Shown: positions 15,927 to 34,658 of the stretch, one piece after another
Position numbering within the stretch: position 1 is the first letter of the stretch
Layout: the number at the start of each line of letters is the position of its first letter
Assembly: GCA_021776235.1 (NCBI GenBank)
Contig: JAJFGG010000161.1
Span: forward strand, 62,001-126,000
Direction: 5' to 3'
DNA from: Alphaproteobacteria bacterium
GTDB lineage: Bacteria; Pseudomonadota; Alphaproteobacteria; GCA-2731375
DNA: 64,000 bases
Translations under genes and position numbers: made by a program
The notes under the pieces: model-generated
Database searches by the model: none
What the model was told of the DNA's origin: nothing
What the model saw: only the letters and a program-made list of their open reading frames with translations

Positions 15927-17612
15927 ATGCAGGCTGCCGAGCTTCGGGATGAGAGTATTACCGCTGATGAGTTATTGTCCCTGTGCGGCGCGGCGCTGGC
16001 GGCGGCCGACGGGCTGTTGGCCCGGGCCCGGCAAAGCGTACGGGCGCTCGTCGATAAGGATGGCGCCATTGATGGCTCCCGGATTGAAGCACAGCAATTC
16101 GCGGTGCACGGTCTGGCCTGGCTGGCAACCTATGGCGAGGCCCTGCGGCAAAGCCTGGCCTGGGCTGAAAATCTGTCGGCGGCCGGCCGCTTTGGCGCCA
16201 TGGAGCAATTACTGCTGCAACTGGGGTTTGGCGGTTATCTGACGGAAATGGCCAATGGCATCGCCATGAGCCAGATCGAGGTCGTGCGCCCGTCCGATCT
16301 GGGCCTCGACGGCGATGATCTGGCGGCATTTCGCGGCGCGGCGGTGGAACGTCTGATGCGCCTGGGCAATACCCAGGACAGCCGTGATCGCCTGGCCGGA
16401 ATGCTGGTTGAAGCTGCCGGTGGCGGCGAATTCGGCGAACTGGGCCTGGATGAAACACTGACCCTGGTGCGCGATCAGTTCCGCCGCTTCACCGAGGACA
16501 ATGTCACGCCCGATGCCCATGGCTGGCACCTGCGGGACGAATTGATCCCCCTGGACGTGGTCCAGGGGATGAGCGATCTGGGTGTTTTCGGCCTGACCAT
16601 TCCAGAGAATTACGGCGGCCATGGCATGGGCAAGACCGCCATGTGCGTCGTCTCGGAAGAGCTTTGCCGGGGTTATATCGGTGTCGGCTCGCTTGGCACC
16701 CGCTCGGAAATCGCCGCCGAATTGATCCTGCATGGCGGCACCGAGGAACAGCGCCAGGAATGGTTGCCAAAGATCGCCTCCGGTGAAATTCTGCCCACGG
16801 CGGTGTTCACGGAACCCAACGTGGGCTCGGACCTGGGCAGTGTCGGTACCCGGGCCATACGTGATGGTGATGTTTACCGGGTACAGGGCAACAAGACCTG
16901 GATCACCCATGCCGCCCGCGCCGATATGATGACCCTTTTGGCGCGGACGGATTCCGAGCAAGCCGGCTATCGCGGTCTGTCCATGTTCCTGGCGTCCAAG
17001 CCACGCGGCGAAGGCGATGATCCTTTCCCTGCCAAAGGCATGTCGGGCGGCGAGATCCAGGTGCTGGGCTATCGCGGCATGAAGGAATACGAGATCGCTT
17101 TCGACGGCTTCGAAATAGCAGCGGAAAATCTGCTGGGTGGCGAGGAAGGCCGCGGCTTCAAACAATTGATGGCGACGTTCGAATCCGCCCGCATCCAGAC
17201 CGCAGCCAGAGCCGTGGGCGTGGCCCAGAACGCTTTCGAATTGGGCCTGAACTATGGCATCGAGCGTCAGCAGTTCGGCGGTCCCATCGTGCGCTTTCCC
17301 AGGGTGGCGGGAAAGTTGGCCTGGATGGCTGTGGAGATCATGCTGTCGCGGCAATTGACCTACTTCGCCGCCCGGCAAAAGGATCAGGGCCGGCGTTGCG
17401 ACCTGGAAGCCGGCATGGCCAAATTACTGGCCGCCCGCGTGGCCTGGTCATCGGCTGACAATGCGGTGCAGATCCACGGCGGCAACGGTTTTTCCTTGGA
17501 GTTCCCTATCAGCCGCGTCCTCTGCGATGCCCGTATCCTGAACATTTTTGAAGGGGCCGGAGAGATCCAGGCCCAGGTTATCGCCCGGCGGTTGCTGGAA
17601 AGCCATAACTAG
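15927..17612 (+). CDS. mcd: Acyl-CoA dehydrogenase with N-terminal extension, (2S)-methylsuccinyl-CoA dehydrogenase-like
   Basis: 561 aa; ACAD motifs 'AVFTEPNVGSDLGSVGTRA', 'QIHGGNGFSLEFPISR' preceded by a ~150-aa extension, the size/layout typical of Mcd. Confidence 0.65.
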   Translation: MQAAELRDESITADELLSLCGAALAAADGLLARARQSVRALVDKDGAIDGSRIEAQQFAVHGLAWLATYGEALRQSLAWAENLSAAGRFGAMEQLLLQLGFGGYLTEMANGIAMSQIEVVRPSDLGLDGDDLAAFRGAAVERLMRLGNTQDSRDRLAGMLVEAAGGGEFGELGLDETLTLVRDQFRRFTEDNVTPDAHGWHLRDELIPLDVVQGMSDLGVFGLTIPENYGGHGMGKTAMCVVSEELCRGYIGVGSLGTRSEIAAELILHGGTEEQRQEWLPKIASGEILPTAVFTEPNVGSDLGSVGTRAIRDGDVYRVQGNKTWITHAARADMMTLLARTDSEQAGYRGLSMFLASKPRGEGDDPFPAKGMSGGEIQVLGYRGMKEYEIAFDGFEIAAENLLGGEEGRGFKQLMATFESARIQTAARAVGVAQNAFELGLNYGIERQQFGGPIVRFPRVAGKLAWMAVEIMLSRQLTYFAARQKDQGRRCDLEAGMAKLLAARVAWSSADNAVQIHGGNGFSLEFPISRVLCDARILNIFEGAGEIQAQVIARRLLESHN

Positions 17613-17775
17613 GCGGCCGGCCGCCAACGAACTTCTGATAGCCGGAGATCCGGCCGGTGAAATCTATGGCAATGCCGGCGTCTCTTGCTATGCTCGCCTG
17701 AAAGCTGTGAATTTCCGGGTCATGCCGGCTAGGCCTTGGCGCCTGCCAATGGTCCGGCAAGGGAGGCAGGGGTGA

Positions 17776-19215
17776 ATGGTGGCACGGACCGGTGAACAGT
17801 TTCTCCTGGGCCTGCGGGGCGCGCGGGAGCTTTGGGTCGGCGACGACAAGGTCGCCTCGGTGCCGGATCATCCGGCCTTGGCCGGGGCCGCGACGGCCCT
17901 GGCCGAAGTCTTCGACCTGCAGCATCGCGAAGCCGACGCTTGCCTGATGCCCGATCCCGAAACCGGCGAGCCGATCAATGTCAGCCATATGATTCCGCGC
18001 TCCCAGGCGGACCTGGAGCGCCGGCATCGCGGCCTGGAGTGTATCGCGGAATATTCCATGGGCCTGATGGGCCGCACCCCCGACTACATGAATGTGACAT
18101 TCGCCGGCTTTGCCGGGCGGGCCGACGAATGGGCCATCAACGGCAATGGCCAGGGGGCCGAAAATCTCGTCAGTTATCAGAAAATGCTGGCCCGCAAGGA
18201 TCTGTCCCTAACCCACACCATCATACATTCCACCGTCAATCTGGCCGCGGGCACGGTGCCCGACGGTCTTGATCCGGCCCAGTTGCACAAGGTGGAAGAG
18301 ACCGAACATGGCATTGTGGTGCGGGGCTCGCGGGTGCTGGCGACACTGGCGCCGTTCGCCGACGAACTGGCCGTCTATCCGGGCATGCCAATGCCGGATG
18401 CGGCGGCGCAACACGCGTTGTCGTTCTGCATTCCCATGGACACGCCGGGCCTGAAATTCATCTGCCGCGACAGTGTCGCGGTAAACAGCAATAAATTCGA
18501 TCATCCCCTTTCCAGCCGCTTCGACGAGCAGGACGCTTTCGTCATTTTCGACGATGTCGAGGTGCCGCGCGACCGCCTGTTCATTGACGGCAGCCTGGAA
18601 GCCTACAACACGGCCATGCGAACCAGCTGGTGGCCGAACATCATGCAGCAAACCATGATCCGTGCTCATACCAAGCTGGATTTCGCCAGGGGTCTTGGCC
18701 TGCGCATGGCGGCGGCGATCAACCGGGAGGACCCTCAGACGCAACAGATGCTGGGTGAAATCGCCATGTATGCGGAATTCGCCCGGGCCGCCATTTACGC
18801 CGCGGAACAGGCGGCCCATGAATATGGCAACGGCATGTGGTGTTGCGAGCTGCCGCCGTTGCTGGCATTGCGGGCGGCGCTGCCGGCGTGGTTCCCGCGG
18901 GTCAATGAAATCATCCGCCAGATCGGTTCGCACAACATGCTGACAACGCCGTCCAGGGCGGCCCTGAACGACCCTGAGCTGCGGCCGTTGATCGACCGCT
19001 ATCTAATGGGCGTCGGCGTCGATGCGGAACAGCGCGACCGTATCTTCCGGCTGGCCTGGGATTTTGCCGGCACCGCCCTGGGCAGCCGGAACGAACAGTA
19101 TGAGCGCTTTTATCTTGGCTCCGTTGGCCGCAATCAGACAGTGGCGCATAATTTTCTGGACCGTGACCGCGCCGTGCGCCTGACCGATCGCTTTCTGACG
19201 GAGGAACTGGACTGA
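17776..19215 (+). CDS. 4-hydroxyphenylacetate 3-hydroxylase (HpaB) family protein
   Basis: 'MGRTPDYMNVTFAGFAG', 'HTIIHSTVNLA', 'ISSRFDEQDAFVIFDDVEVPRDRLFI'-like motifs ('SSRFDEQDAFVIFDDVEVPRDRLFI'). Confidence 0.9.
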   Translation: MVARTGEQFLLGLRGARELWVGDDKVASVPDHPALAGAATALAEVFDLQHREADACLMPDPETGEPINVSHMIPRSQADLERRHRGLECIAEYSMGLMGRTPDYMNVTFAGFAGRADEWAINGNGQGAENLVSYQKMLARKDLSLTHTIIHSTVNLAAGTVPDGLDPAQLHKVEETEHGIVVRGSRVLATLAPFADELAVYPGMPMPDAAAQHALSFCIPMDTPGLKFICRDSVAVNSNKFDHPLSSRFDEQDAFVIFDDVEVPRDRLFIDGSLEAYNTAMRTSWWPNIMQQTMIRAHTKLDFARGLGLRMAAAINREDPQTQQMLGEIAMYAEFARAAIYAAEQAAHEYGNGMWCCELPPLLALRAALPAWFPRVNEIIRQIGSHNMLTTPSRAALNDPELRPLIDRYLMGVGVDAEQRDRIFRLAWDFAGTALGSRNEQYERFYLGSVGRNQTVAHNFLDRDRAVRLTDRFLTEELD

Positions 19216-19277
19216 ATTTTAAGACCTGGATCTGATGCCGGCGTGGGCACCATGCGGTGCGCCATTCACGAGCCGAA

Positions 19278-20723
19278 TTACTGAATCTGCTTCGGCAGCC
19301 AGGTTGCCACTTCCGGCACCCAGATCAGCAAGACCAGGACAAAAAGCTCTATGACAATGAAGGGCAGGGCTGACTTCACCACCTGGCCCAAGGTCACCTC
19401 GAACTGGGCAACGCCTTTCATGACATAAAGCAAAAGGCCGAATGGCGGGGTCAACAGGCTGATCTCCATGGTTATCAGCATCAGCACCATCAGCCAGATG
19501 ACATCGATATTGAAGGCCACCTGCAGGGATTGGGAGCCCAATAGAAAAAACGGCAGGGTCAGCAGCAACATGCTGACCTGATCCATGAACGCGCCGAGGA
19601 ACAACAACACGGCCATCATCGCGATCACCACCATGATCGGCGTCAGATCCAGTTGAGTGATTTGCTGCAACAGTCCATCCGTCGCCCCGGAATTCGCCAG
19701 CGCCTGGCTGAAGACCAACGAGCCGGCGATGATGAACAGGATCATGGTGTTGATCTTGGCGGTCTCCATCAGGGACCTGGCGACGTCCCGCCAGGTGAAA
19801 TCGGCGCCTTCGATGCCGGAAATTCGGATCACGGTCTTGAAAAGACGAAAGAAATAGCAGACCGCCAAGGCGGCGAGACAGCCCAGGGCGGCGGCCTCGG
19901 TCGGCGCTGCAATCTTAAAGAAGATGCTGCCGACCACGATCACGAAAATCACCAGCAATGGCAGAATATAAAAGAAGAACGGCAGCACGCGGTTCAACAT
20001 GCGGCGGCCGCGGCCGTTGTAGACTGCGCCGGCGATCCGCCGGCCGCCGAGATGCAGCGATATGGTCAAGGGCCCGTCCATGTCGCCATGGTCCGGTACA
20101 TAGGCCGGCGCCAGGGCTGGATTGAGCATGCAGCGCCCCACCACATAGGCGAAGAACAGCACGGCCATAAGCATGCCCGGCACGATGCCGGCGATCAGCA
20201 ATTGCGCCACTGATTGTTCCGCCAGGCTGGCCAGCAGCACCGCCAGGGCCGATGGCGGGATTAGCATAGCAATGCCGCCCACGGCCATGATCGGGCCCAT
20301 GGCGATGGAAGGCTGGTACCCGCGCTTGATCATGTCGGGCAGCAGGACCGAGCCCAGGATCGCGGTATTGGCGATGGTGGAGCCGGACAAAGAGGAAAAC
20401 ACCGTACCGCCGACGATCGAGACCACGGCCAGGCGGCCGGGAACCCGCGAGATCAACCGGTCGATGGCGCCGATGGCCTTGAAGGCCACGCCGGTCTGCA
20501 AAAGGATTTCGCCCATCAGCAGGAACAGCGCGATCGGCGCCAGGGTAAATTTAATGGCGTTGTGGAACTCTATCGGCATGAACAGCAGGCCGATATCGCC
20601 GTTGATGAACAGATAGGTACCCAGGATGTTCGCCGCGAAGAAGGCAAAGGCGACCGGCAGGCCCAGAAACATGAAGGCGCAGACCGTGCCGAGCAAAAGA
20701 CCGAGCGCAAAGTACCATTCCAT
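19278..20723 (-). CDS. dctM: TRAP transporter large permease subunit (DctM)
   Basis: Many TM segments; 'SGSTIANTAILGSVLLPDMIKRGY', 'LITMEISLLTPPFGLLLYVMKGVA'. Confidence 0.93.
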   Translation of the reverse strand: MEWYFALGLLLGTVCAFMFLGLPVAFAFFAANILGTYLFINGDIGLLFMPIEFHNAIKFTLAPIALFLLMGEILLQTGVAFKAIGAIDRLISRVPGRLAVVSIVGGTVFSSLSGSTIANTAILGSVLLPDMIKRGYQPSIAMGPIMAVGGIAMLIPPSALAVLLASLAEQSVAQLLIAGIVPGMLMAVLFFAYVVGRCMLNPALAPAYVPDHGDMDGPLTISLHLGGRRIAGAVYNGRGRRMLNRVLPFFFYILPLLVIFVIVVGSIFFKIAAPTEAAALGCLAALAVCYFFRLFKTVIRISGIEGADFTWRDVARSLMETAKINTMILFIIAGSLVFSQALANSGATDGLLQQITQLDLTPIMVVIAMMAVLLFLGAFMDQVSMLLLTLPFFLLGSQSLQVAFNIDVIWLMVLMLITMEISLLTPPFGLLLYVMKGVAQFEVTLGQVVKSALPFIVIELFVLVLLIWVPEVATWLPKQIQ

Positions 20724-20726
20724 GGG

Positions 20727-21293
20727 TTAGAAACCCGAACTTGTCGGACTATTGCCGGTGTCCGCGATCTCGACCGCGCGGCGGATACGAAACAGGAACT
20801 CGACGGCGAGCAGAAAGAATGAACCGGCGAAGACCGCCAACATGTACCAATTGGCGATGCGTAAATCCTTGTCGGGCAGGGTACCGTCCTCGAACTCCGA
20901 CAAGGCCGCGCGTGCGCCATAATAGCAGAGCAGGAAGCAGAGCAGGGCGCCCGCCACATCGACACCCTGTTCCAGGCGGATCGCCCGCCGTTTGGGCAGC
21001 GCCGCAATCAGGACATCGACACGCACATGAGCGCCTTCCTGCAACACCCACGGCGCGCCGATAAAGACGCCGACATAAAGAGCATATTCGACGGCTTCGT
21101 AAAGCCACCAGATGTTGCCCCACTGCATGTTGATAAGCAGCAGGTTCAACGGGATGAGCAGCGCGATCAAGCCGACCGATATGGCGACCAGGGCGGCCAG
21201 AAAGAATGTGACCTGCCTGAACCCGGTCTCAAGGGCATCAATTTGCCGGCGCATAATGTCGTCTAACGTTTTCACGTGAAGCGGTTGATCCAT
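20727..21293 (-). CDS. dctQ: TRAP transporter small permease subunit (DctQ)
   Basis: 4-TM small protein directly upstream of dctM; 'GAHVRVDVLIAALPKR'. Confidence 0.9.
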   Translation of the reverse strand: MDQPLHVKTLDDIMRRQIDALETGFRQVTFFLAALVAISVGLIALLIPLNLLLINMQWGNIWWLYEAVEYALYVGVFIGAPWVLQEGAHVRVDVLIAALPKRRAIRLEQGVDVAGALLCFLLCYYGARAALSEFEDGTLPDKDLRIANWYMLAVFAGSFFLLAVEFLFRIRRAVEIADTGNSPTSSGF

Positions 21294-21296
21294 ACG

Positions 21297-21332
21297 CGAT
21301 GGGGACCGCCGATTTGGTGGCGGTCCCCATCG
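21297..21332 (-). promoter_or_regulatory. Perfect 14-bp stem-loop between dctP and dctQ
   Basis: CGATGGGGACCGCC / gatttggt / GGCGGTCCCCATCG, read directly. Confidence 0.8.
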
Positions 21333-21348
21333 TCCATGGTATCAGCCG

Positions 21349-22326
21349 CTATTTGGTGAAGAGTTTTTGCAGTTTCGGACCATGTTCCGGACTGCGGGCC
21401 AGAACTTCTTTCCAGCCCTCCGCCTTGGCCGCGCTGACCCATTTGTCCCGTGCGGCGCCACTCAACGCGATGGTCTTGACGCCGTTGCTTTCAAACCAGG
21501 CCTTCTGTTTTTTCGCCAAAGCTTTGAAACCGTCGCTGGCCGGGTCGGCCTGGCCTTCAAACATCAAACCAACCTTGTTCAACAGACCCTGCTGCGCCTT
21601 ATCCAGGCTGTTCCATTTCTTCAAATTGACCAGGGTATGCAGGGTGCCGTCATAAAAACCGGGATCGACCCGAAATTTGGTGACCTTTGCCCAGGCCGGT
21701 ATCCAGCCCATGAGTGGCCAGCCAAAGCCCTGTACCGTGTTGTTTTCCATATAGGTGTAAACCTGCGCGATGGTCGAAGTTTGCACCGTTGCACCCAGGG
21801 ACTTGAAAAACGCCGTATAGACCGGAGATACCCTGATGTTCATACCTGTCAGGTCGGCACCGGTAATCTTTTTGTTGGTATAGAGATGAAAAGTGCCAAA
21901 GGTGTGGTGGCGGGCAATAAACTGCAGGCCCTTGGCGTTGAACAGTTTTTGCATATAGTCGAGGGCGCCGTTCTGACGCAGCTCTGGATAGCTATAATCG
22001 GAAAACCGCAGGACCGGCGCCTCTGGCAGGACGTTGCCGAAATAGGCTTCGGTGCAGCCGACCATGTCGTATGCGCCTTTCGCCATTTTCTGGGTCAGGG
22101 TGAAGGGACTGCCGATCGCCGGCGCGCCGCCGACCATTTTGATCTGCAGGACGCCCTTGCCCTGCTTGTTGACTTCGTTGACCACCGCCTCGAACGGTTT
22201 CGAGACCGGGCTGCCAATGGGGAAACAACTGGCCCCCGTCAAGGTGACTTCCGCTGCCTGGGCCGGCATCGCCATGACGCCAATGACCGTCGCCGCGGCA
22301 ACGAATACTGCGTTTTTCCTGAACAT
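21349..22326 (-). CDS. dctP: TRAP transporter substrate-binding protein (DctP)
   Basis: Signal peptide 'MFRKNAVFVAAATVIGVMAMPAQA'; 'GMNIRVSPVYTAFFKSLGATVQTSTIAQVYTYMENNTVQGFGWP'. Confidence 0.92.
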   Translation of the reverse strand: MFRKNAVFVAAATVIGVMAMPAQAAEVTLTGASCFPIGSPVSKPFEAVVNEVNKQGKGVLQIKMVGGAPAIGSPFTLTQKMAKGAYDMVGCTEAYFGNVLPEAPVLRFSDYSYPELRQNGALDYMQKLFNAKGLQFIARHHTFGTFHLYTNKKITGADLTGMNIRVSPVYTAFFKSLGATVQTSTIAQVYTYMENNTVQGFGWPLMGWIPAWAKVTKFRVDPGFYDGTLHTLVNLKKWNSLDKAQQGLLNKVGLMFEGQADPASDGFKALAKKQKAWFESNGVKTIALSGAARDKWVSAAKAEGWKEVLARSPEHGPKLQKLFTK

Positions 22327-22567
22327 GTCTCTCGGACCTCCCCGTCCTTTTGTGCCGGGGCTTTTTCCTTGGGCGCCCCACCCCCAGGCATGCATTCGTG
22401 GCACGCGTTGGCGGAATTCTAACAACATTGCCCGCCGCCGCACAGGCATTTTCCCGCCGCCGGGCAGGCCTGTTGATCGGGGTGCGCCAGCACCGGAAAG
22501 CGCCGACGGCCCGTCAATTTGCTTTGCAGGCGCCCGCCGATTTGCTAGATGCTTAATTCCCTAGCAC

Positions 22568-22965: not shown

Positions 22966-23358
22966 ATGAAGATTATCTTGTCTTCGATAGTCGTTGCTCT
23001 ACTCGCCACGGGCGCCATGCCTGCCTTTGCGGATGAGGCTTGGCAGGCCTTCGAGTGCCAACTCGTCGGTGAGCAAACCGCGGACGACGTGCTTGATTCA
23101 GCCGAGAAGTGGCTAACGGCGGCGCGAACCATGCAGGGTGGCGAGAAGATGGAGCTCAGAGTCCTCATCCCGCACGCAACCGGGGGCGGTGAGACCGACT
23201 TCTTGTTTATCCTAAATGCGCCGTCCTTCGCGGCCTGGGGAACGTTCTGGGACAATTACGAGGGATCTCCGGCGCACAAGATTGACGAGGAATCCCAAGC
23301 TATGGCTGTCTGTCCCAGCAGCCGGCTGTACGAGAGCGTGAGGGTTGAGGCCAAGTAA
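22966..23358 (+). CDS. Hypothetical secreted protein
   Basis: 'MKIILSSIVVALLATGAMPAFADEAWQAFEC...' clear signal peptide; no family recognised. Confidence 0.65.
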   Translation: MKIILSSIVVALLATGAMPAFADEAWQAFECQLVGEQTADDVLDSAEKWLTAARTMQGGEKMELRVLIPHATGGGETDFLFILNAPSFAAWGTFWDNYEGSPAHKIDEESQAMAVCPSSRLYESVRVEAK

Positions 23359-23635: not shown

Positions 23636-26600
23636 ATGATGGGGCTCATTCTGCCCGCGATCGTCATCGCTGTGTTTTGCATCACTTATCTGGCATGGCA
23701 GCGCTATGTCCGGATCGCCCGAAGTCCGACCGAAGGCGCGACGGATACGTCTCCTTACAGCATCACGGAGGTCTTCGGTGAAGCGCATCTCCTCAATGTG
23801 CCGCACCAGCGGGGAGCCTGCTGGCTGACGGACATTTTCAGCCGCTCGGCGAGGCGCTATCCGCAGCACATCGCCCTGCAGGTTCCGCATACCGGGGAAT
23901 CCCTTACCTTTGCCGAGCTCGACAGGGAAGCCGCGAAAGTGGCCGCTGCTCTGTCCCGTTTCCTCAACGGAGCGGACCAAGTCGTCGCCCTGTCCATGGC
24001 GCAGGACAACTGGCAGGCTGTTGCCTGTCATCTGGGCATCCTCAAGGCTGGCGGCACGGTCGTGTTCCTGGATACCGCACTGCCCGAGGCGATGCTCTCC
24101 CACATGCTTGCGGATGCCCGGCCGGTGGTCGTTCTCACGCGCGGCGAGGCCAGATTTCGCGATTTCCCGACCCTGGATGTGCTGTCATTGCAGGACGAGT
24201 TGCCCCGGACTGCCCCGCCACCTTGGCTGGACGATCCGGCCCAGCGTCTCGCAACCATCTTCTACACGAGTGGTACCACCGGATTGCCGAAGGGCGTGGA
24301 ATGCCCGCACGCCGGATATGTGAACCTGGCGCTGACTTATGCCGACTACTTCGATCTGGTGCCGGGTATGGACGCGACCACGCTCACATCGTCGCTCGGA
24401 TATGACGGAAGCATCTCCGAAATGTACAGCGCGTGGGTCTCCGGCTGCTCTGTCGTGATGCTGACGAATGAGGAAATCCGTTCAGGCCCGGAGCTTCTCC
24501 CGGTCCTGCGCGAGGCGGAGGTGACCGTGCTCTTTTGTCCACCGGTGCTGCTGTCCACCCTGACGCCGACGCCGGAACTGGACCTGCCCTACCCGCTCTG
24601 CCGCTACATCGTGCCGGCCGGCGAAGCGTTTCCACCTGCATTGGTCGAACCATGGACCCGCGCACGACGACAGATCATCAACACCTATGGTCCAACCGAG
24701 GCCAGCACCGACACGAGCCGCCAAACCCTAAGGCCGGGCGAACCCGTTACAATTGGCTCGCCGCTGGCAAACGTCACATACGTCATCCTGGAACCTGGTA
24801 CGCTCCGTCCGCTGCCGCATGGAGAGGCCGGCGAACTCTGCATCGGCGGCGTACATGTCGCGCGAGGCTATCGGAACTTGCCTGAACAGACCGCCGAGAA
24901 GTTCATTTCGCATGCTGAGTTTGGCCGCCTTTACCGCACGGGTGACAGGTGCCGGATCGATTCCATGACGGGACAGGCGGACTTCCTCGGTCGCATCGAC
25001 ACACAACTCAAAGTTCGCGGGCATCGCGTGGAAGTTCAGGCCGTCGAGGATATCCTGCAAACGCAGATCCTGGAGATCGACGCGGCGGTGCTCGACTATC
25101 AGAATGAAGAACTGGTCGCTTTCCTTGCTGCGCCCGGGTTCCAGACCCGCGGATCGTCAGACGTCAGCCCGGCACCGCCAGGGTGGGTAGAAAACGTCAC
25201 TAACAGCCTGGCCCGGCAGCTTCCGGAACCGTCCATTCCGACCCGCTTTTTTCTTGTGAAGAGCTTTGTACTGAACCAGAGATCCGGCAAGATCGACCGG
25301 GGACAGCTGCCGCGGCTGTCGGATCTGTTGCAAGGCGCTGATCCGGACCCGGACGGCAGGCAGGGACGCACGGCGACAGCTTCCCCGGATCAAGTGGCGG
25401 ATAACACGACAACGCGTCCCGAGGATCACGATACTGATCCCGGCGACGGGGATGCCCTGTCGATCTGCCGCGGACTTTTTGGCCCATCTCTCGGCTGGGA
25501 CGATGCCTTTGTAGATCATGGCGGTCATTCCATCCTCATCGCGCAGCTGGCACAGAGATTGCGCCGGGCGGGGTGGTCGGTACCGGTTCGCGCTCTGCTC
25601 AGCAACTGCGATACGGCGCGCAAAATCTCGAATTGTCCGAAGGAATCTCACGTCCCCACCATGAACGTGACCGCGGCCGCCCAGCGCGGTCAAGACGATA
25701 TCAGACGCGATGAGGTGGCCGCAACGGTGCTGTCCGTGGCGGCTTTCACTGTTCGGCAGATCCTTTTCCTTGCCCTACTGTATGCCCCGCATTTGATGGG
25801 TTTCCTCGCTGCGGTGGCCTATGGCGAGGTCGGAGCGTTCTTCGTCAACGCCAAGCTCTGGAAATTCGTCGCCGTCGGCTTTCTCCTCTTCATCGCCGGC
25901 TTCGCCCTGCCATTCGCCAACCTCTTATGGGTTCTGGCGCTCAAACGGTGCTTGATAGGGGCGGATTTCAGGGCAGGGGCGGTCATTGGCGCATTTCCGA
26001 AGTGGAGCCGAATGCATCTGCGAATCTGGTGCGTTGGGCGCTTGCAAGGCGCGGTCCTCGGCCCGCTGGACGTGATGTTTCGCAGTCCGCCCGTGATGGC
26101 CTTCGCACTCCGGCAACTCGGTGCGAAGGTCGGGCGACATACCGAATGCGCGCATGAGGTCACATTCTCCGGACCACTGGATCTTCTTCACATCGGGGAC
26201 GGCGTCGCAGTCCAGACCGGAGCTTACATCCAGACGGTGCGATGGATGGGGGCGGCACTGCATATTGGCCCCGTCCAACTGGAGCAGGACTGCAAGATTG
26301 GCATGCGGGCCTGCGTGGGCAGTAATGTTGTGGTTGGCCGCGGTGCCTGGGTTACACCTTTCACGGCCGTTCTGAGCGATGTCGGACCGGCGGAGATGTG
26401 GGAAGGCGCGCCTGCGCGGCCGGTCGGGCGATGCACGAAGCTGAAACGCGTGACGGCGCATTGCCGGCCGAGCCTCCCGATGTGGTCTCGTGAGGCCGCC
26501 AATATTTCTCTCCAGGCGCTGTTGGATTTCGTCCTTCTGGTCGCCCCCGTAACCGCGGTCACTTGGGTCGCCACGGCGATCATGCCCAGCGCTCGGGCGG

Positions 26601-27958
26601 AGCCTGCCGGCAGCTACTTCATGACGGCGCCGCTCGGCGAAATTATCGGGACGATGGGAGGTTACATTTTCGCCACCACATGGGTTTCGATCGTGCTGAC
26701 TTCGGTTCTGGTCTGCCTTTTCGTACGTTCAACGCGAGCCTCTCCAGGGCTCTATCCCTCGCGCGGGCTTCAGGGCGCCCTGCTCCTGTATCGTCAGAGA
26801 GTGATGAACCTGATTCAGCGTATCTGGACTTGGACCATCATGGGGCAGTACCTGCGGGCTCTCGCGGGTCTTGGCTTTTCGCGGTTGGGCGGCTCGGAGT
26901 GCGATCTCATGCTGAACCTCGTCCCCGAGGCCGCGACGGCCGACGCGAAGGTGTTTTGGGCCAATGGTTGCTTCACGAACATGGTTGACCACGATGCAGG
27001 GCAACTGATCCTGCGGCAACTCGACATGCCGGCGAATTTCTTCGCCGGAAACAACTGCGTCGCCGAAGAGGGTCACTTTCCGACGAATTTCCTGCTCGGC
27101 GTCTCGTCGCCTGGTAACGGCAGCACCTTCCGGCGCCAGATGCATTCCCGGCTCTGCCCGCCGATCACCGTTGCCGGCAACCCGCCGGTGCGGTTTGCCA
27201 GCGCCGATTTCGAAGCCGAGAAGCGCAACCAGATCCTGCCGAGCTATGCTCTTTTCCTCGGGCGCGTCTTGCTGAATGACATCTTCAGCATCGGGTTTCT
27301 GCGCACCGCCGATCCGCTCGTCTACGTCGTCCTGTTCACGGTTTTGCTCCGCTTTGGGGGCGATGCGCTTCTGAGCGCGTTTATCGCCATCGTTCTGACC
27401 GAGATCACTCTGATTCTGGCCTGCGTCATGGTCAAGAAGCTGCTCGTCGGCAGCACTTGGGGTGCCGACCATTCCGCACCGTTCTGGTCCTGGCGGCATT
27501 TCACCTACTTCTTCGCGCAGGACTGCTTCTTGGCTTGGTGCAGGATACCCTTCGCGGTTGCGGCCGGGACCGTGCTGCCAAATCCCGTGCTGCGTTGGCT
27601 GGGGTGCGAGATCGGACAGCGGTCCATCCTGGTCTCGCCGCTGCAGGCCTTCGACTGGAATGCGGTGAGCATTGGCGATGACGCCCTGGTCGACGGTATC
27701 CTGCAATTTCATTCGCTGGTAAACATGACGTTGGCCGTCAAGCGCACGCGGATCGACGACGGCGCTGTCGTCAATACAGGCGCCACCGTGATGGGTGGGG
27801 CCGTGATCGACGCAGGGACGACCCTGCTGCCGCTCGCCCTTGTCCTGAAAGAAATGCACCTGTCGACGTGCGTCTACTGGGGCAGCCCGGTGGAACCGGC
27901 AGACCAGCTAGAGAGCGGGCCGATAGAGCCCAGACTTCCCGATGCAGCACCACTCTGA
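23636..27958 (+). CDS. Pls/PosA-type NRPS-like protein: N-terminal TM, adenylation domain, thiolation domain, membrane C-terminal domain with LbH (hexapeptide) segments
   Basis: A-domain 'IFYTSGTTGLPKGVE', 'NTYGPTEAS', 'YRTGDR', 'GRIDTQLKVRGHRVEVQAVE', 'RSGKIDRGQLP'; carrier 'WDDAFVDHGGHSILIAQLAQRL'; several TM segments; LbH-like 'GDGVAVQTGAYIQT...QDCKIGMRACVGSNVVVGRGAWVTPFTAV' and 'IDDGAVVNTGATVMGGAVIDAGTTLLPLALV'; 'APFWSWRHF'. Confidence 0.88.
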   Translation: MMGLILPAIVIAVFCITYLAWQRYVRIARSPTEGATDTSPYSITEVFGEAHLLNVPHQRGACWLTDIFSRSARRYPQHIALQVPHTGESLTFAELDREAAKVAAALSRFLNGADQVVALSMAQDNWQAVACHLGILKAGGTVVFLDTALPEAMLSHMLADARPVVVLTRGEARFRDFPTLDVLSLQDELPRTAPPPWLDDPAQRLATIFYTSGTTGLPKGVECPHAGYVNLALTYADYFDLVPGMDATTLTSSLGYDGSISEMYSAWVSGCSVVMLTNEEIRSGPELLPVLREAEVTVLFCPPVLLSTLTPTPELDLPYPLCRYIVPAGEAFPPALVEPWTRARRQIINTYGPTEASTDTSRQTLRPGEPVTIGSPLANVTYVILEPGTLRPLPHGEAGELCIGGVHVARGYRNLPEQTAEKFISHAEFGRLYRTGDRCRIDSMTGQADFLGRIDTQLKVRGHRVEVQAVEDILQTQILEIDAAVLDYQNEELVAFLAAPGFQTRGSSDVSPAPPGWVENVTNSLARQLPEPSIPTRFFLVKSFVLNQRSGKIDRGQLPRLSDLLQGADPDPDGRQGRTATASPDQVADNTTTRPEDHDTDPGDGDALSICRGLFGPSLGWDDAFVDHGGHSILIAQLAQRLRRAGWSVPVRALLSNCDTARKISNCPKESHVPTMNVTAAAQRGQDDIRRDEVAATVLSVAAFTVRQILFLALLYAPHLMGFLAAVAYGEVGAFFVNAKLWKFVAVGFLLFIAGFALPFANLLWVLALKRCLIGADFRAGAVIGAFPKWSRMHLRIWCVGRLQGAVLGPLDVMFRSPPVMAFALRQLGAKVGRHTECAHEVTFSGPLDLLHIGDGVAVQTGAYIQTVRWMGAALHIGPVQLEQDCKIGMRACVGSNVVVGRGAWVTPFTAVLSDVGPAEMWEGAPARPVGRCTKLKRVTAHCRPSLPMWSREAANISLQALLDFVLLVAPVTAVTWVATAIMPSARAEPAGSYFMTAPLGEIIGTMGGYIFATTWVSIVLTSVLVCLFVRSTRASPGLYPSRGLQGALLLYRQRVMNLIQRIWTWTIMGQYLRALAGLGFSRLGGSECDLMLNLVPEAATADAKVFWANGCFTNMVDHDAGQLILRQLDMPANFFAGNNCVAEEGHFPTNFLLGVSSPGNGSTFRRQMHSRLCPPITVAGNPPVRFASADFEAEKRNQILPSYALFLGRVLLNDIFSIGFLRTADPLVYVVLFTVLLRFGGDALLSAFIAIVLTEITLILACVMVKKLLVGSTWGADHSAPFWSWRHFTYFFAQDCFLAWCRIPFAVAAGTVLPNPVLRWLGCEIGQRSILVSPLQAFDWNAVSIGDDALVDGILQFHSLVNMTLAVKRTRIDDGAVVNTGATVMGGAVIDAGTTLLPLALVLKEMHLSTCVYWGSPVEPADQLESGPIEPRLPDAAPL

Positions 27959-28188: not shown

Positions 28189-28965
28189 CTAACCGTGGCC
28201 GATATAGTCCATGCGGCCGCCATCCACGGTAAGGACCTGTGCGGTGGTGAACCCGGCTTCGGGGCTGGCGAGGAAGGCGACAGCGGCGGCGATGTCCTCC
28301 GGCGCTCCGACACGGCCGACCATGGTGCGTTCGCGCATCCCGGTGACGCGATCAGCGAACTCTGCCTCCGTGGTGTTGCGGCGGACCATGTCGGTGACGA
28401 TCCAGCCGGGGCAGACGGCGTTCACAGTAATGCCGGCGCGGCCAAGTTCCATCGCGAAGCGCCTGGTCAGGATCAGGACCTCCGCCTTCGTCGCGGCGTA
28501 GAAGGTGGTGCCGGGCAGCGCGGTGCCGATAGCGGCGTTGGAAGCGATATTGACGATGCGCCCGTAGCCTCTCGTCTTCATGCCGTCCATGATGGCGCGA
28601 ATGGTATTGATGACGCCGTTGACGTTGACGCGGCGCATGCGGTCCAGGGCCGCCTCGTCGTAGGTCTCCAGGGTAGCGGGGCTGGAGATGCCGGCGTTGT
28701 TGACCAGGATGGTGGGCGGGCCAAGCTGCGCCTCCGCCTGGGCGATCAGGGACTGGACCTCGGCAGGGCTGGACACGTCCGCGCGCACGGCGATGGCCGT
28801 GGCGCCCTTGGCGCGCAACTCCTTGACCAGAGAGTCGGCGGGCTGCGGCTGGGCCGTGTAGTTGACGCAGATGGCCGCGCCCTGGGCGGCGAGGCGGGTG
28901 ACGATGGCGCGACCTATGCCACGTGAACCGCCGGTGACAATCGCGACCTGCTGGGTGGAAGGCAT
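28189..28965 (-). CDS. SDR family oxidoreductase (3-oxoacyl-ACP reductase-like)
   Basis: 'VAIVTGGSRGIGRAIVTRLA', 'LVNNAGISSPA', 'YAATKAEVLILTRRFAMELG'. Confidence 0.93.
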   Translation of the reverse strand: MPSTQQVAIVTGGSRGIGRAIVTRLAAQGAAICVNYTAQPQPADSLVKELRAKGATAIAVRADVSSPAEVQSLIAQAEAQLGPPTILVNNAGISSPATLETYDEAALDRMRRVNVNGVINTIRAIMDGMKTRGYGRIVNIASNAAIGTALPGTTFYAATKAEVLILTRRFAMELGRAGITVNAVCPGWIVTDMVRRNTTEAEFADRVTGMRERTMVGRVGAPEDIAAAVAFLASPEAGFTTAQVLTVDGGRMDYIGHG

Positions 28966-29250
28966 GCCAGCAGCCTATCTGTCAATGCCGGCGTCAGCAA
29001 GCTTGAATGGTCAGTTCTGGAGCTATTGCAAGGGCCGCGCGCGGACGAATCTCATGGCTCGATTGGGGGCGCGAAACCCTGATCCCGGCGGCCGAAGAGG
29101 CCGCTTCGCAAAGGGCAATGGCGGACCGATAGGGGGTCGACCTCACTGCCATAAAAAGGCAGGCTGTCAGAACCGCCGGGCCGGCCATCCGGGTGCTGTC
29201 CTCAGCGCCAGCGGCCCTGCTTCGATAAGAACAACACTGGAGATTTGACG

Positions 29251-30018
29251 ATGCGAGCGAACAAGATCAAGCAGATGTGGCAAGACGGTAAATGCGTGAC
29301 CCTGGGTTGGCTCTCCGTGTCCCACGGTTTCACGGCCGAGGTTATGGCGCGTCTGGGCTTCGATGCCCTGTGCGTTGATTTGCAGCACGGCACCTCGGAA
29401 ATGAATGACGTCTGGCCCATGCTGCAGGCGATCTCGCAGACAGACACGGTCCCGGTCGTGCGCGTCGCATGGAACGAGCCGGCGCCGATCATGAGGGCCC
29501 TGGACCTGGGCGCCTACGGCATCATCGTACCGCTGGTCAATACGGCCGAGGAAGCGGCAAAGGCGGTGGCCGCGTGCCGCTACCCGCCGGTCGGCATGCG
29601 CTCGTCGGGACCCATACGCGCGGCGCAATATGGCGGCGCCGACTACCAGGCCAACGCCAACGACGAGATCGTCATCATGGCCATGATCGAGACCAAGGAG
29701 GGCCTCGCCAACCTCGATGCCATCTGCGCCACGCCCGGCCTCGACGCCGTCTACATCGGGCCGGCCGACCTGTCCTTCGCGTTGGGTCTGGAGCCGCGCG
29801 GCGATAATCCCGACCCGATCCATCTCGCTACCTGCGACAAGATCCTCGAGACCGCCCATAAAAACGGCATAAAGGCCGTCATGCACTGCGCCAGCGCGGC
29901 GTTTGCGGCGGGTGCCGTGGAGCGCGGCTTCGACATGGTGATGCTGACGTCCGATCTCGCGTGCATGATTGCCGGCGCGCGGCTGCAGCTTGATGAGCTC
30001 AAGGCCAAGACCGCCTGA
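29251..30018 (+). CDS. HpcH/HpaI aldolase/citrate lyase family protein
   Basis: 'VTLGWLSVSHGFTAEVMARLGFDALCVDLQHGTSE', 'MIETKEGLANLDAICATPGLDAVYIGPADLSFALG'. Confidence 0.93.
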   Translation: MRANKIKQMWQDGKCVTLGWLSVSHGFTAEVMARLGFDALCVDLQHGTSEMNDVWPMLQAISQTDTVPVVRVAWNEPAPIMRALDLGAYGIIVPLVNTAEEAAKAVAACRYPPVGMRSSGPIRAAQYGGADYQANANDEIVIMAMIETKEGLANLDAICATPGLDAVYIGPADLSFALGLEPRGDNPDPIHLATCDKILETAHKNGIKAVMHCASAAFAAGAVERGFDMVMLTSDLACMIAGARLQLDELKAKTA

Positions 30019-30020
30019 GG

Positions 30021-30962
30021 ATGGCAGGGCCTGCAGAGCTCATTCTGCACCATTACGATTTCTCCAATTATGCGGAGAAAGCGCGGCTGGCGCTTGGCTA
30101 TAAGGGGCTGACGTGGCGGTCGGTGATCATTCCGCCCGTCGCCCCCAAGCCTGATCTGACGCCGCTGACCGGCGGCTATCGGCGAACGCCGGTGCTGCAG
30201 ATCGGTGCCGACATCTATTGCGACACGAAGCTTATCCTGCGGGAGCTTGAGCGGCGGCAACCGCAACCGACATTGTATCCCGCTGGCTGCACCGCGATTG
30301 GTGAGGCGATTGCCTATTGGGCCGAGCATCAGCTTTTCCGGCCGATCTCGCTCTATGTGTCCGGCACCAATCTGGATCTCTTGCCGGACAATCTGCAGGC
30401 CGACCGATCCATGATGCGGGGCCTGCCGGTGCCCGATGCGGAAACGGTGCGGCGCGCGGCACGGCGCAACGCACCTGCCGTGCGGGTGCAAATCGCCCGG
30501 GTCGAGGCAATCCTGTCCGACGGCCGCGACTGGATGGCCGGCCCCGCGCTAAGCGTCGGCGACTTCGCGGTTTATCATGCCTTGTGGTTCATCTCGGCCC
30601 GCAGCGGGCGGTTGGCGCATGAGCTGGCGCCCTATGCCCTAACCAGGAACTGGATGGGGCGCATGGCTGAGTTCGGACATGGATCGTGCTCACCCATTAC
30701 GGCGGCGCAAGCGCTCGATGTGGCGCAAGGGGCGCGACCGGCGCCCTTGCGGGCCTCGGAACCGTTTGTCGAGGACCCGCAACCCGGTACAAATGTGCGA
30801 ATCCGCGCCGACGATTACGGCCGGGATACAATCGAGGGTGAGCTCGTCCTGATTGATGCCGAAGAGGTGGCACTGCGCCGCCGGGACCCGAAAACCGGCG
30901 ACGTCGTCGTACATTTCCCCCGCCTTGGTTACGACCTGCGGGCGGTCACTTCCCGATTATAG
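30021..30962 (+). CDS. Glutathione S-transferase family protein
   Basis: 'LILHHYDFSNYAEKARLALGYKGLTW', 'GGYRRTPVLQIGADIYCDTKLILRELE' thioredoxin-fold N-terminus. Confidence 0.85.
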   Translation: MAGPAELILHHYDFSNYAEKARLALGYKGLTWRSVIIPPVAPKPDLTPLTGGYRRTPVLQIGADIYCDTKLILRELERRQPQPTLYPAGCTAIGEAIAYWAEHQLFRPISLYVSGTNLDLLPDNLQADRSMMRGLPVPDAETVRRAARRNAPAVRVQIARVEAILSDGRDWMAGPALSVGDFAVYHALWFISARSGRLAHELAPYALTRNWMGRMAEFGHGSCSPITAAQALDVAQGARPAPLRASEPFVEDPQPGTNVRIRADDYGRDTIEGELVLIDAEEVALRRRDPKTGDVVVHFPRLGYDLRAVTSRL

Positions 30963-31143
30963 CCCGGAACTACCCTAGCCAAATTGCGTCAGTTTGCTAT
31001 GCTGGGATTTCCGGATCATCTTTTCATCAATACTGGGCTCGGATGATCCGTTTGCCGATCCGCCGGTGTTTGGCTGGCGTTTGATAGGCCCGTGCATGTA
31101 CCCCGACCGCGCCGTGATCCGGCCGTGGTCTTGAGCTGCGCTC

Positions 31144-32223
31144 ATGGGTGAGCCCAATGTCTTTGAACGAGATAATGTAGTGTCCGCTACAGGGAGCCTT
31201 ATTGTGTCCATCTCCGCGGCTGAAACAGCCGAAGATATTTCGAAAATTGCCTTTGGTTTCATGGCGTCGAAATCGTTATTCGCCGCTCTCCATGTTGATC
31301 TTTTTTCCCATCTGTCGAAAAATCCCAAGACCGAGGCCGAACTCGCCAAGGCAGCGGATGTCCCCGTCAACCGCATCACGACCCTGACCCGCGCCCTGCG
31401 CAGCCTTGGCCTGTTGGTGCGGGAAGAGGGCAAACTGGCCAATGCCCCAGCCTCTGAGTTTTTTCTGGTCAAGGGCGCGAAATACGATTTTGGTGATTAT
31501 CTGCGCTATCAGATTGACGGCCAGATGTATCCGGTGCTGGATCAGTTGAACGATGCCATGGATGGGACTCTGGATCCGGAAGCAATTGAATCATACGCCA
31601 GCTGGATGTCTGATCCGGTGCAGGCGCGGATTTATTCCAAGGCCCAGCATGCGGGTTCCCTCGGCCCGGGCCGCACCATCGCGGAACTGGTTGATCTGGA
31701 CGATGCCCGTACCCTGTTGGATGTGGGTGGCGGTACGGGCGCCATGACCATCAGCTTGTGCAAAGCCAATCCCGAATTGAGCGCGACCATCGTTGATTTT
31801 CCCAATGTCGCGGAAATCGGCTGGGAATATATCTCCGAAGCAGGCCTGGTGGACCGGGTGCGCTATATTCCCGCCAATGCCCTGGAATGCGAATGGCCGA
31901 CGGAACGTTGCGCGGTATTGATGTCCTATCTGTTCTCTGGCGTGCCGGAAGACGCCATAGAGCCGTTGATCGCCGACGCCTTCAAAACCCTGCGCCCCGG
32001 CGGCACACTGATGGCGCATGATTTTATGGTCGATGCGGAAAAGGCAGAGCCGCAGCTGGCCGCCCTATGGCATCTGCAGCACATGGCCTTCACGCCGGAA
32101 GCTGCCTCCATGACGGCGGCCCGCATTGCCAAGGCCATGGAAGCCGCCGGTTTTATCACGCCCACCGAGGCCGAGGTCATTCCCGGCATGACCCGTATCG
32201 TGCATGCCCGCAAACCTGAATAG
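31144..32223 (+). CDS. SAM-dependent methyltransferase (acetylserotonin O-methyltransferase-like)
   Basis: N-terminal winged helix plus 'TLLDVGGGTGAMTISLCKANPELSATIVDFPNVAEI'. Confidence 0.88.
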   Translation: MGEPNVFERDNVVSATGSLIVSISAAETAEDISKIAFGFMASKSLFAALHVDLFSHLSKNPKTEAELAKAADVPVNRITTLTRALRSLGLLVREEGKLANAPASEFFLVKGAKYDFGDYLRYQIDGQMYPVLDQLNDAMDGTLDPEAIESYASWMSDPVQARIYSKAQHAGSLGPGRTIAELVDLDDARTLLDVGGGTGAMTISLCKANPELSATIVDFPNVAEIGWEYISEAGLVDRVRYIPANALECEWPTERCAVLMSYLFSGVPEDAIEPLIADAFKTLRPGGTLMAHDFMVDAEKAEPQLAALWHLQHMAFTPEAASMTAARIAKAMEAAGFITPTEAEVIPGMTRIVHARKPE

Positions 32224-32261
32224 AGAGGGAGAATAGCCCGGCACGCTTCCTCTCATTGAAG

Positions 32262-32900
32262 CTATGGCCGTCGCCCTTTCAGGTTGAAGAATAGGCATAT
32301 GAGGTATGCGGCGATCGCCACCATGGTAATGGGCGGCATGCCGCCGGCCCACTGCCCGGGCGTCAGCCAGCCCTTGAAACCCATAATGAGCAGGTGTCCC
32401 GCAGCCAACAGGCCGGCGAGCCGCAACGAACCAAATGACGTGATGAGGGCCAGGAAGGCAGCATCGCCTTCCTGCCTGGTCTTGAAGCTGATGTTGTATA
32501 GCCACAACCAGATGAATGCGAGAACGCCAAGCAGCATGCTCCAGCTGCCGACCATACTGAGAGAACCGTCGGTGGCAAAAAACTTGCCATAGTAGGCCCC
32601 TGACCCGAACAGCAGAACGGCAAAGAAAACATGCGCCAGGATCATCACGAAGGCAACGGTGCCGATCTCCTTGCGGCTGTCGAGCCAGTCGTCGGGGACA
32701 TCCACACCGATTTTCCTGGCTGGCCCCAAAGCAAAATTTATCGCCAGCAGGATAAAGCCGGCCAGGGAGACCACCTTGTTGAAGACGAACAGCGCGAAAT
32801 CTTTCAGTGGAACGCCTTCAAATACGTGATAGCGGAAAATCCCATAGGCCAAAGAGAACAGGAATACGACGGCAATAATCTGTACGGATTTCTTTGACAT
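32262..32900 (-). CDS. Ferric reductase-like / cytochrome b-type transmembrane protein
   Basis: Multi-TM; conserved His in 'ILAHVFFAVLLFGSG' and 'LAAGHLLIMGFKGW'. Confidence 0.6.
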   Translation of the reverse strand: MSKKSVQIIAVVFLFSLAYGIFRYHVFEGVPLKDFALFVFNKVVSLAGFILLAINFALGPARKIGVDVPDDWLDSRKEIGTVAFVMILAHVFFAVLLFGSGAYYGKFFATDGSLSMVGSWSMLLGVLAFIWLWLYNISFKTRQEGDAAFLALITSFGSLRLAGLLAAGHLLIMGFKGWLTPGQWAGGMPPITMVAIAAYLICLFFNLKGRRP

Positions 32901-32969
32901 GAACGGTCGTCTCCTATGCTGGCGCAGGCGGCGGAGCGGTGAGGCTCTAACCTGTATCGGACCATTTAT

Positions 32970-33079
32970 GACAATAGAGCAACCTGCGTTCATTTGAACG
33001 CAGACAAGTTGCTCGGGCTCTTTAAGATAGATCAAATTATCAGCGCAAAAATGATTCTATGTTTGGGCTGTTTGATCTA
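32970..33079 (+). repeat. Dispersed ~110-bp two-hairpin repeat, copy A
   Basis: gacaatagagcaacctgcgttcatttgaacgcagacaagttgct...gtttgggctgtttgatcta; aligns along its length with 54885-54995. Confidence 0.9.
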
Positions 33080-33223
33080 GCCGACCTGCGCGCGTTCCCC
33101 AATCTCGTAGATTCGGCGTACCAGCCCGGCTACACTCTGTGCCATGCCGATTAAGTTTCAGCCAAGACCTGCTGCCCTTGTCGCAATCGATGTCGCCGCC
33201 GACCGGCGAAAGGGCGGTGCGTT

Positions 33224-34615
33224 TTGAGCCGCGCCGGCAACCCGGCCGCATTAGGAACAACCAGGCCGATGCAGACCGGCAAGCCGATCAACGCCTTCAA
33301 TTTTCTGCGGCAGATTCGTGATAATGGGATCTCGATCTATCCGCCCTCGGCGCACCAAGTGGACTTTGCCTCCCGGCGCCTTGGTCTGCAGCAGTTTATC
33401 CTGTTGAATCATCCCGATTACATTCAACACGTTCTGGTGCGCAACCAGGAGAACTATCCCAAGGGACGCCTGACCCGGCAGATCCTGGGCCCGGCGCTCG
33501 GCCGCGGCCTACTGAATAGCGAGGGCGACTTCTGGCGCCGGCAACGGCGTATCGCGGCGCCGTCGTTTCACCACAAGCGCCTGATCGATCTGGCGGACGT
33601 GATGTCGGATACCGCATTGCAGACCGCGGACAAATGGCGCCTCGCGGCGCAGAGCGGCGGTTCACTCGACATCACCCGTGAGATGATGCGCCTGACTATG
33701 GAGATTGTCGCCAGGTCGCTGTTCTCCCATGACATTGCCGGATCCATCGACCAGTTGGGCGCGGCCATCACGGTAATGATCGATAGCATCGGAAGGCCCA
33801 GCCTGCTGGATCTTCTGGGGCTGCCGGAATGGCTGCCCCGGCCGCGTAGCCGCGAATTCAACGCGGCGATGGCGCTGATAAACAACACCATCTACGAAAT
33901 TCTGCGCCAGCGCCGGGCCGCAACACAGGCTTCCGGGGCGGACTCCGGTGACCTGCTGGGGATGCTGCTGGCGGCCCGGGACGAAACGACCGGGGAAGGC
34001 ATGAGCGATCGCCAACTGCGGGACGAGGTGGTGACAATTTTTGCCGCCGGTCACGAAACCACGGCGGTGGCCATGAGCTGGACCTGGTACCTGTTGTCAC
34101 AGCACCCGCAGTACGAAGCCAGGCTGCATCTGGAATTGGATCAGGTGCTGGCCGGGCAGGCGCCGCGCTTCGCGGATCTGGAACAACTGCCATATACCCG
34201 GATGGTCTTCGAAGAGGCGCTGCGGCTCTATCCACCGGCATTTTCTCTGACCCGCGTGGCGGTGGCCGATGACCGTGTTGGGCCGCACCGCATTCCGAAG
34301 GGCGCCATGGTCACCCTGTCTCCATGGGTGACCCACCGCGACCCGCGGCTTTGGCCCGATCCGGAACGCTTCGACCCGGATCGCTTCCTGCCCGAGGCTG
34401 TACGCCAGCGCCACAAGTTTGCCTATTTCCCGTTCGGCGGCGGCCCCAGGGTCTGCATCGGCAATAGTTTCGCCCTGATGGAAGGCCGGCTTATCCTTGC
34501 CGCCCTGGCGCAACGTTATCGTCTTCGCCTCGAGCCGGGCCACCCGGTGGAGCCCCAGGGCCGCATCACCCTTCGTCCCCGGCATGGCATGCCCATGACC
34601 ATTGAAGAACGCTGA
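33224..34615 (+). CDS. Cytochrome P450
   Basis: I-helix 'IFAAGHETTAVAMSW', ExxR 'FEEALRLYP', heme loop 'FPFGGGPRVCIGNSFALME'. Confidence 0.94.
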   Translation: MSRAGNPAALGTTRPMQTGKPINAFNFLRQIRDNGISIYPPSAHQVDFASRRLGLQQFILLNHPDYIQHVLVRNQENYPKGRLTRQILGPALGRGLLNSEGDFWRRQRRIAAPSFHHKRLIDLADVMSDTALQTADKWRLAAQSGGSLDITREMMRLTMEIVARSLFSHDIAGSIDQLGAAITVMIDSIGRPSLLDLLGLPEWLPRPRSREFNAAMALINNTIYEILRQRRAATQASGADSGDLLGMLLAARDETTGEGMSDRQLRDEVVTIFAAGHETTAVAMSWTWYLLSQHPQYEARLHLELDQVLAGQAPRFADLEQLPYTRMVFEEALRLYPPAFSLTRVAVADDRVGPHRIPKGAMVTLSPWVTHRDPRLWPDPERFDPDRFLPEAVRQRHKFAYFPFGGGPRVCIGNSFALMEGRLILAALAQRYRLRLEPGHPVEPQGRITLRPRHGMPMTIEER

Positions 34616-34658
34616 CAATAATGTGGTGAATTTGGACCCAGGACATTAGGCTTCGCAT

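Follow-up and report, generated by a model that had tools for sequence, protein, structure and literature searches.

The window analysed here is a 64,000-nucleotide stretch of an alphaproteobacterial genome (lineage GCA-2731375; contig JAJFGG010000161.1), and its positions 23636-27958 encode a 1440-aa synthetase. This is a real, constrained gene. Our preferred reading, to which we assign a probability of roughly 0.55, is that it specifies a membrane-anchored enzyme of a Pls-like sister subfamily that makes a short oligo-amide, that the ancestral product was guanidinylated, acyl-capped and related to diaminopropionate (Dap), and that the window holds a reduced form of the system.

Domain order of the synthetase

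The reading frame has exactly the position and length given to it in an earlier note, which had been made from the letters of the DNA. Its parts are as follows (TM, transmembrane; A, adenylation; T, carrier).

23636..27958, plus strand: synthetase open reading frame (ORF), 1440 aa, membrane-anchored and single-module, in the order TM, A, T and three repeats of a TM pair with a soluble segment
23636..23704, plus strand: N-terminal TM helix, residues 1-23 (hydropathy), kept in orthologs
23837..25315, plus strand: A domain, about residues 68-560 (TIGR01733, PF00501)
25487..25633, plus strand: carrier (PP-binding) domain, residues 618-666 (PF00550), with the phosphopantetheine Ser632 in DHGGHSI
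25715..27895, plus strand: terminal membrane domain, residues 694-1420 (matched by TIGR02353 over its whole length, under the cutoff)
25715..25957, plus strand: TM pair 1, residues 694-774 (hydropathy)
26114..26416, plus strand: left-handed beta-helix of the C1 segment, about residues 827-927 (AlphaFold; PF00132 slightly under threshold)
26495..26740, plus strand: TM pair 2, residues 954-1035 (hydropathy)
27290..27460, plus strand: TM pair 3, residues 1219-1275 (hydropathy)
27599..27901, plus strand: left-handed beta-helix of the C3 segment, about residues 1322-1422 (AlphaFold)

Pfam and NCBIfam searches bore out the A domain and the GGHS carrier motif described in that note and likewise found no condensation or thioesterase domain in the 1440-aa protein; TIGR01733 covers residues 91-484 (E 1.5e-88), and PF00501 and PF00550 also match. 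The six TM helices of the terminal region form three pairs around three segments, as judged from hydropathy and the AlphaFold model. Where the contig is long enough, the orthologs can be aligned from end to end, and the N-terminal TM helix is part of the alignment. This helix, correctly singled out before as unlike the usual layout, is a fixed trait of the window clade and is missing from eight of nine canonical Pls/PosA proteins. The sequence 'APFWSWRHF' is present in the C-terminus, as had been noticed, and sits within a motif that is largely invariant across the clade. The features of an active A-carrier module are all found: the core A motifs, the equivalents of Asp235 and Lys517, the carrier serine and a phosphopantetheinyl transferase (PPTase) in the genome.

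A sister subfamily of Pls/PosA

The protein resembles the Pls/PosA family (epsilon-poly-L-lysine synthetase, delta-poly-L-ornithine synthetase PosA; TIGR02353) in the order of A, carrier and terminal domains, in the three TM pairs, in the absence of condensation and thioesterase domains and in a beta-helix acyltransferase-like fold. The earlier note had placed it in this family and proposed TIGR02353 as the check. The architecture stood, and the model matches end to end (positions 15-694 of 695, E about 1e-45), but strict membership did not hold, as the score was 156.2 bits for the whole protein and 159 for the terminal domain, against a curated cutoff of 423.1. TIGR02353 is carried by 24 other genomes among 299 of the same phylum, 23 of them scoring 506-945 bits with one outlier at 368. 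All 31 clade members tested match it, with a best E of 1.3e-55.

A scan of genome contigs with the terminal domain yielded 40 loci, about 40-74% identical, that are spread over Alpha- and Gammaproteobacteria, Desulfobacteria, Acidobacteriota, Verrucomicrobiota and Planctomycetota. In a terminal-domain tree (a quick tree with midpoint root and long branches flagged), 28 clade rows were split from nine canonical rows by a branch of 3.5 changes with 100% SH-aLRT support. The window protein shares 19-24% of its terminal-domain residues and 32-34% of its A-domain residues with Pls/PosA proteins. The clade is thus a separate sister subfamily of Pls/PosA and not a canonical member, and is Pls-like by its anatomy. 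Within it, the window synthetase pairs with that of L007, a Filomicrobium metagenome-assembled genome. Horizontal transfer is likely, since the two nest among Desulfobacteria, Acidobacteriota and Verrucomicrobiota; none of 14 further genomes from the order of the window genome has the gene. Comparison of the window and L007 genes gave a nonsynonymous rate (dN) of 0.169 and a synonymous rate (dS) of 0.955, a ratio of 0.18, and over the first 500 aligned codons, mostly A domain, dN/dS was about 0.10. These values indicate strong purifying selection on the window synthetase.

Neither a plasmid nor a viral setting is supported: there were two plasmid matches only, at 24% identity, one of them annotated Pls/PosA. 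Viral contigs gave zero matches to the synthetase. Two loci hold additional material. Delta proteobacterium NaphS2 (L040) has a second synthetase copy whose frame is split into several ORFs, the copy in L011 being intact, and at L037:15059-16801 an additional 580-aa ORF of the synthetase's sequence cluster lies about 3 kb downstream of the main gene.

The adenylation pocket

All ten specificity residues could be read, as the earlier note had recommended: D257, G258, S261, F300, V326, A328, T350, T358, D359 and K552 (DGSFVATTDK), at positions given by motif alignment to GrsA. The equivalent of Asp235 is D257 in YDGSISEMY and the GKIDR lysine is K552, both as first aligned, and these two residues support the original suggestion that the substrate would be an alpha-amino acid. 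No dependable match to the code is known from specificity tables, and no substrate is assigned from the code alone. The code DGSF(V/I)ATTDK is common to all 28 fully readable A domains (the window and 27 orthologs), the sole variation being V or I at position 5.

At position 3 the window protein and all 27 orthologs resolved there have serine (Ser261), whereas all 24 canonical proteins scored have Glu. The corresponding Glu of PosA, E221, contacts the side-chain amine and is essential; all cationic homopolymer synthetases are described as conserving it (PMC10522769). The canonical relative L074 has the code DSECYGGVTK, which is that of a Bdellovibrionales enzyme reported to activate arginine modestly (PMC10522769). 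The poly(L-diaminopropionate) (PDAP) synthetase of Streptomyces albulus PD-1 (PMC4668381) is also a single-module membrane synthetase, but it has Phe at position 2 and belongs to the synthetases that are all described as conserving the Glu (PMC10522769), where the window clade has Gly and Ser.

That the window protein is nevertheless a canonical Pls/PosA enzyme, with one of the known cationic homopolymers (poly-Lys, poly-Orn, poly-Dap or poly-beta-Lys) as its product, is improbable. The domain order is identical and relatives carry SbnA and SbnB, as does the poly-Dap producer (PMC4668381), but the TIGR02353 cutoff is missed by more than 260 bits, the protein falls outside all sampled canonical members in the tree, and its code is unlike every sampled canonical code and unlike that of the poly-beta-Lys synthetase, DGESISVVNK (PMC10522769). 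With score, pocket and tree all against it, canonical membership was rejected.

Gene clusters in the relatives

The neighbourhoods of the related synthetases share a set of genes; the fractions below are of loci with enough flank. Of 24 loci with enough upstream flank, 21 have an amidinotransferase gene upstream of the synthetase, often at a distance of about 10-100 bp. The enzyme is closest to StrB1 (371 bits), with a full-length alignment and GGGFHC, including its Cys, in most copies; SxtG, HsvA and AGAT are more distant. StrB1-like amidinotransferases transfer an amidino group from arginine to an amine. Unlike StrB1 of the streptomycin pathway (1bwd), the enzyme of the relatives is coupled to a membrane synthetase and not to aminocyclitol genes. 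Homologs of SbnA and SbnB, which serve diaminopropionate synthesis, occur together in 12 of 20 loci, with representatives above the curated cutoffs, and a PPTase (PF01648) in 16 of 22. The SbnA/SbnB pair recalls the PDAP system, to which the relatives add the amidinotransferase and an acyltransferase.

The latter is a TraX-like protein in 10 loci and a DUF418 protein in 13, never both at one locus, and the cluster proteins score above the cutoff for PF05857 or PF04235. TraX and DUF418 proteins are both assigned to the transmembrane acyltransferase superfamily, of which TraX is a borderline member (PMC12423673). In contrast to the acyltransferases described there, those of the relatives are tied to the synthetase, and in four Acidobacteriota (L018, L025, L027 and L033) TraX is fused to it in frame; the fusion ties acylation to the synthetase pathway.

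Peptidases also recur next to the synthetase (S41 at 10 loci, DUF4344 putative metallopeptidases at six) and perhaps act in processing or self-protection. Literature searches found no description of a synthetase/amidinotransferase/acyltransferase cluster; a 2010 operon survey with similar gene names (PMC2922099) concerns other operons, centred on tRNA-synthetase-like proteins.

No A-domain residue distinguishes clusters containing SbnA and SbnB from those with the amidinotransferase only, and the pocket therefore cannot be linked with one or the other enzyme. Since the pocket is fixed while the precursor genes vary, the gene content of a cluster does not reveal which substrate the A domain uses.

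Terminal domain and proposed mechanism

The AlphaFold model (31 rows) has a pLDDT of 74.5 and a pTM of 0.80. The two beta-helix-like segments noticed earlier in the C-terminus were modelled confidently as left-handed beta-helices in C1 and C3, but the C2 segment was poorly modelled, most of it at pLDDT below 50; the published PosA model has three such helices (PMC10522769). The closest PDB matches of the terminal-domain model are hexapeptide acetyltransferases acting on sugars and small molecules, in agreement with the PosA model (PMC10522769). A sequence search found no solved structure for the terminal domain.

In the mechanism that we propose, the carrier would first be phosphopantetheinylated, in the window genome by a PPTase acting in trans. 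The A domain would then adenylate one fixed alpha-amino acid and load it onto its own Ser632. The three TM/beta-helix segments may form one membrane-embedded acyltransferase core, with a fold akin to that of hexapeptide acetyltransferases, which would move the carrier-bound aminoacyl group to the amine of another copy or of the growing chain. The outcome would be a short oligo-amide, formed at the inner membrane or across it. Most relatives add to this an amidinotransferase, many of them diaminopropionate synthesis by SbnA and SbnB, and most a TraX-like or DUF418 acyltransferase; because of these additions, the ancestral product was probably a guanidinylated, acyl-capped, Dap-related oligo-amide. 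What the data show is the architecture, its conservation, the invariant pocket, the linkage of the cluster genes in relatives and the TraX fusion; the sequence of the reactions, oligomerisation, the substrate, capping and a homopolymer product are what we infer.

The main rival explanation has no polymerase at all. A single aminoacyl transfer from the carrier to an envelope acceptor (a lipid, a glycan or a small amine) would then give an aminoacylated or guanidinylated envelope component or a small conjugate. The resemblance of the terminal domain to sugar and small-molecule acetyltransferases fits this view, as do the weak NCBIfam matches that each of the 31 clade members shows to envelope acetyltransferases of the WcaF and NeuD types, the recurrence of the TraX and DUF418 envelope acyltransferase families, the missing Pls pocket Glu and the lack of exporter genes among the recurrent neighbours. 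Glycan or lipid pathway genes are, however, equally lacking among them, and the studied proteins with the same domain order (Pls, PDAP synthetase and PosA) make amino-acid polymers (PMC10522769, PMC4668381). We consider such a transfer a serious but rather unlikely alternative.

The window and its host genome

The reduced state of the window system is seen in its surroundings. The only linked cluster partner retained is a small secreted protein.

22966..23358, plus strand: small secreted protein, 130 aa, with a signal-peptide-like N-terminus and a dimeric alpha/beta ferredoxin-like fold; its family occurs in 15 related clusters

The window has no linked amidinotransferase, SbnA, SbnB, PPTase, TraX or DUF418 acyltransferase. 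The genome encodes an Sfp-like PPTase of 292 aa and a short AcpS-like one, and a DUF418 protein of the L007 type was not found in it.

Several observations weigh against the oligo-amide reading with its guanidinylated, Dap-related ancestral product. The cluster amidinotransferase was not found in a search of the draft window genome, which also has no true SbnB, the best match to the SbnB model reaching 105 bits where the cutoff is 327. Likewise the amidinotransferase, carried by the other 12 of the 14 genomes tested, is missing from those of L007 and L009, which have no true SbnB either, L009 holding only a homolog below cutoff; several genomes have the amidinotransferase but no SbnB. SbnB was above cutoff in three of the 14 genomes, a set mostly chosen for having no SbnB near the synthetase. 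As the pocket is unchanged where both enzymes are absent, the A-domain substrate may not come from them. Besides the poorly modelled C2 segment, the TIGR02353 score below cutoff and the absent pocket Glu mean that oligomerisation cannot be assumed from homology. Because the genomes are drafts, the absence of precursor genes is not proof.

The same absences, together with the lack of the gene in 14 genomes of the order, could suggest that the synthetase gene of the window is an orphan in decay, left behind when the precursor genes of its cluster disappeared. This is very improbable, as the 1440-aa frame is intact with all catalytic motifs, dN/dS against L007 is about 0.18 and the small secreted partner still adjoins the synthetase.

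Two further gene groups flank the synthetase. At 28189-35699 there is a series of genes for oxidative and modifying enzymes, namely an SDR (minus strand), an HpcH/HpaI aldolase, a GST, an O-methyltransferase, a cytochrome P450 and a luciferase-like monooxygenase. These may be a catabolic or biosynthetic set of their own; they were left out of the system because they are not recurrent neighbours in the relatives. At 15927-22449 an acyl-CoA dehydrogenase and an HpaB-type hydroxylase (plus strand) face a TRAP transporter DctM-DctQ-DctP set (minus strand).

Product and significance

Judged from gene content, the product is possibly a guanidinylated, acyl-capped oligo-amide. More specifically, and only tentatively, the clade could join units of 2-amino-3-guanidinopropionate (guanidinylated Dap), or of an amino acid related to it, into a short oligo- or poly-amide to which TraX or DUF418 proteins add acyl groups, a system spread horizontally across several phyla; we think it doubtful that all of this will hold. 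If true, this would to our knowledge be the first case of a Pls-type synthetase whose product bears guanidine groups.

Few products of Pls-type synthetases are known, and the conserved gene set of the clade predicts new chemistry, namely guanidinylation and acylation. The clade is distinct, widely scattered and below the curated family cutoff, and it offers a defined cluster for expression. Its fixed pocket would provide a way to probe how the lack of the Glu affects the choice of substrate.

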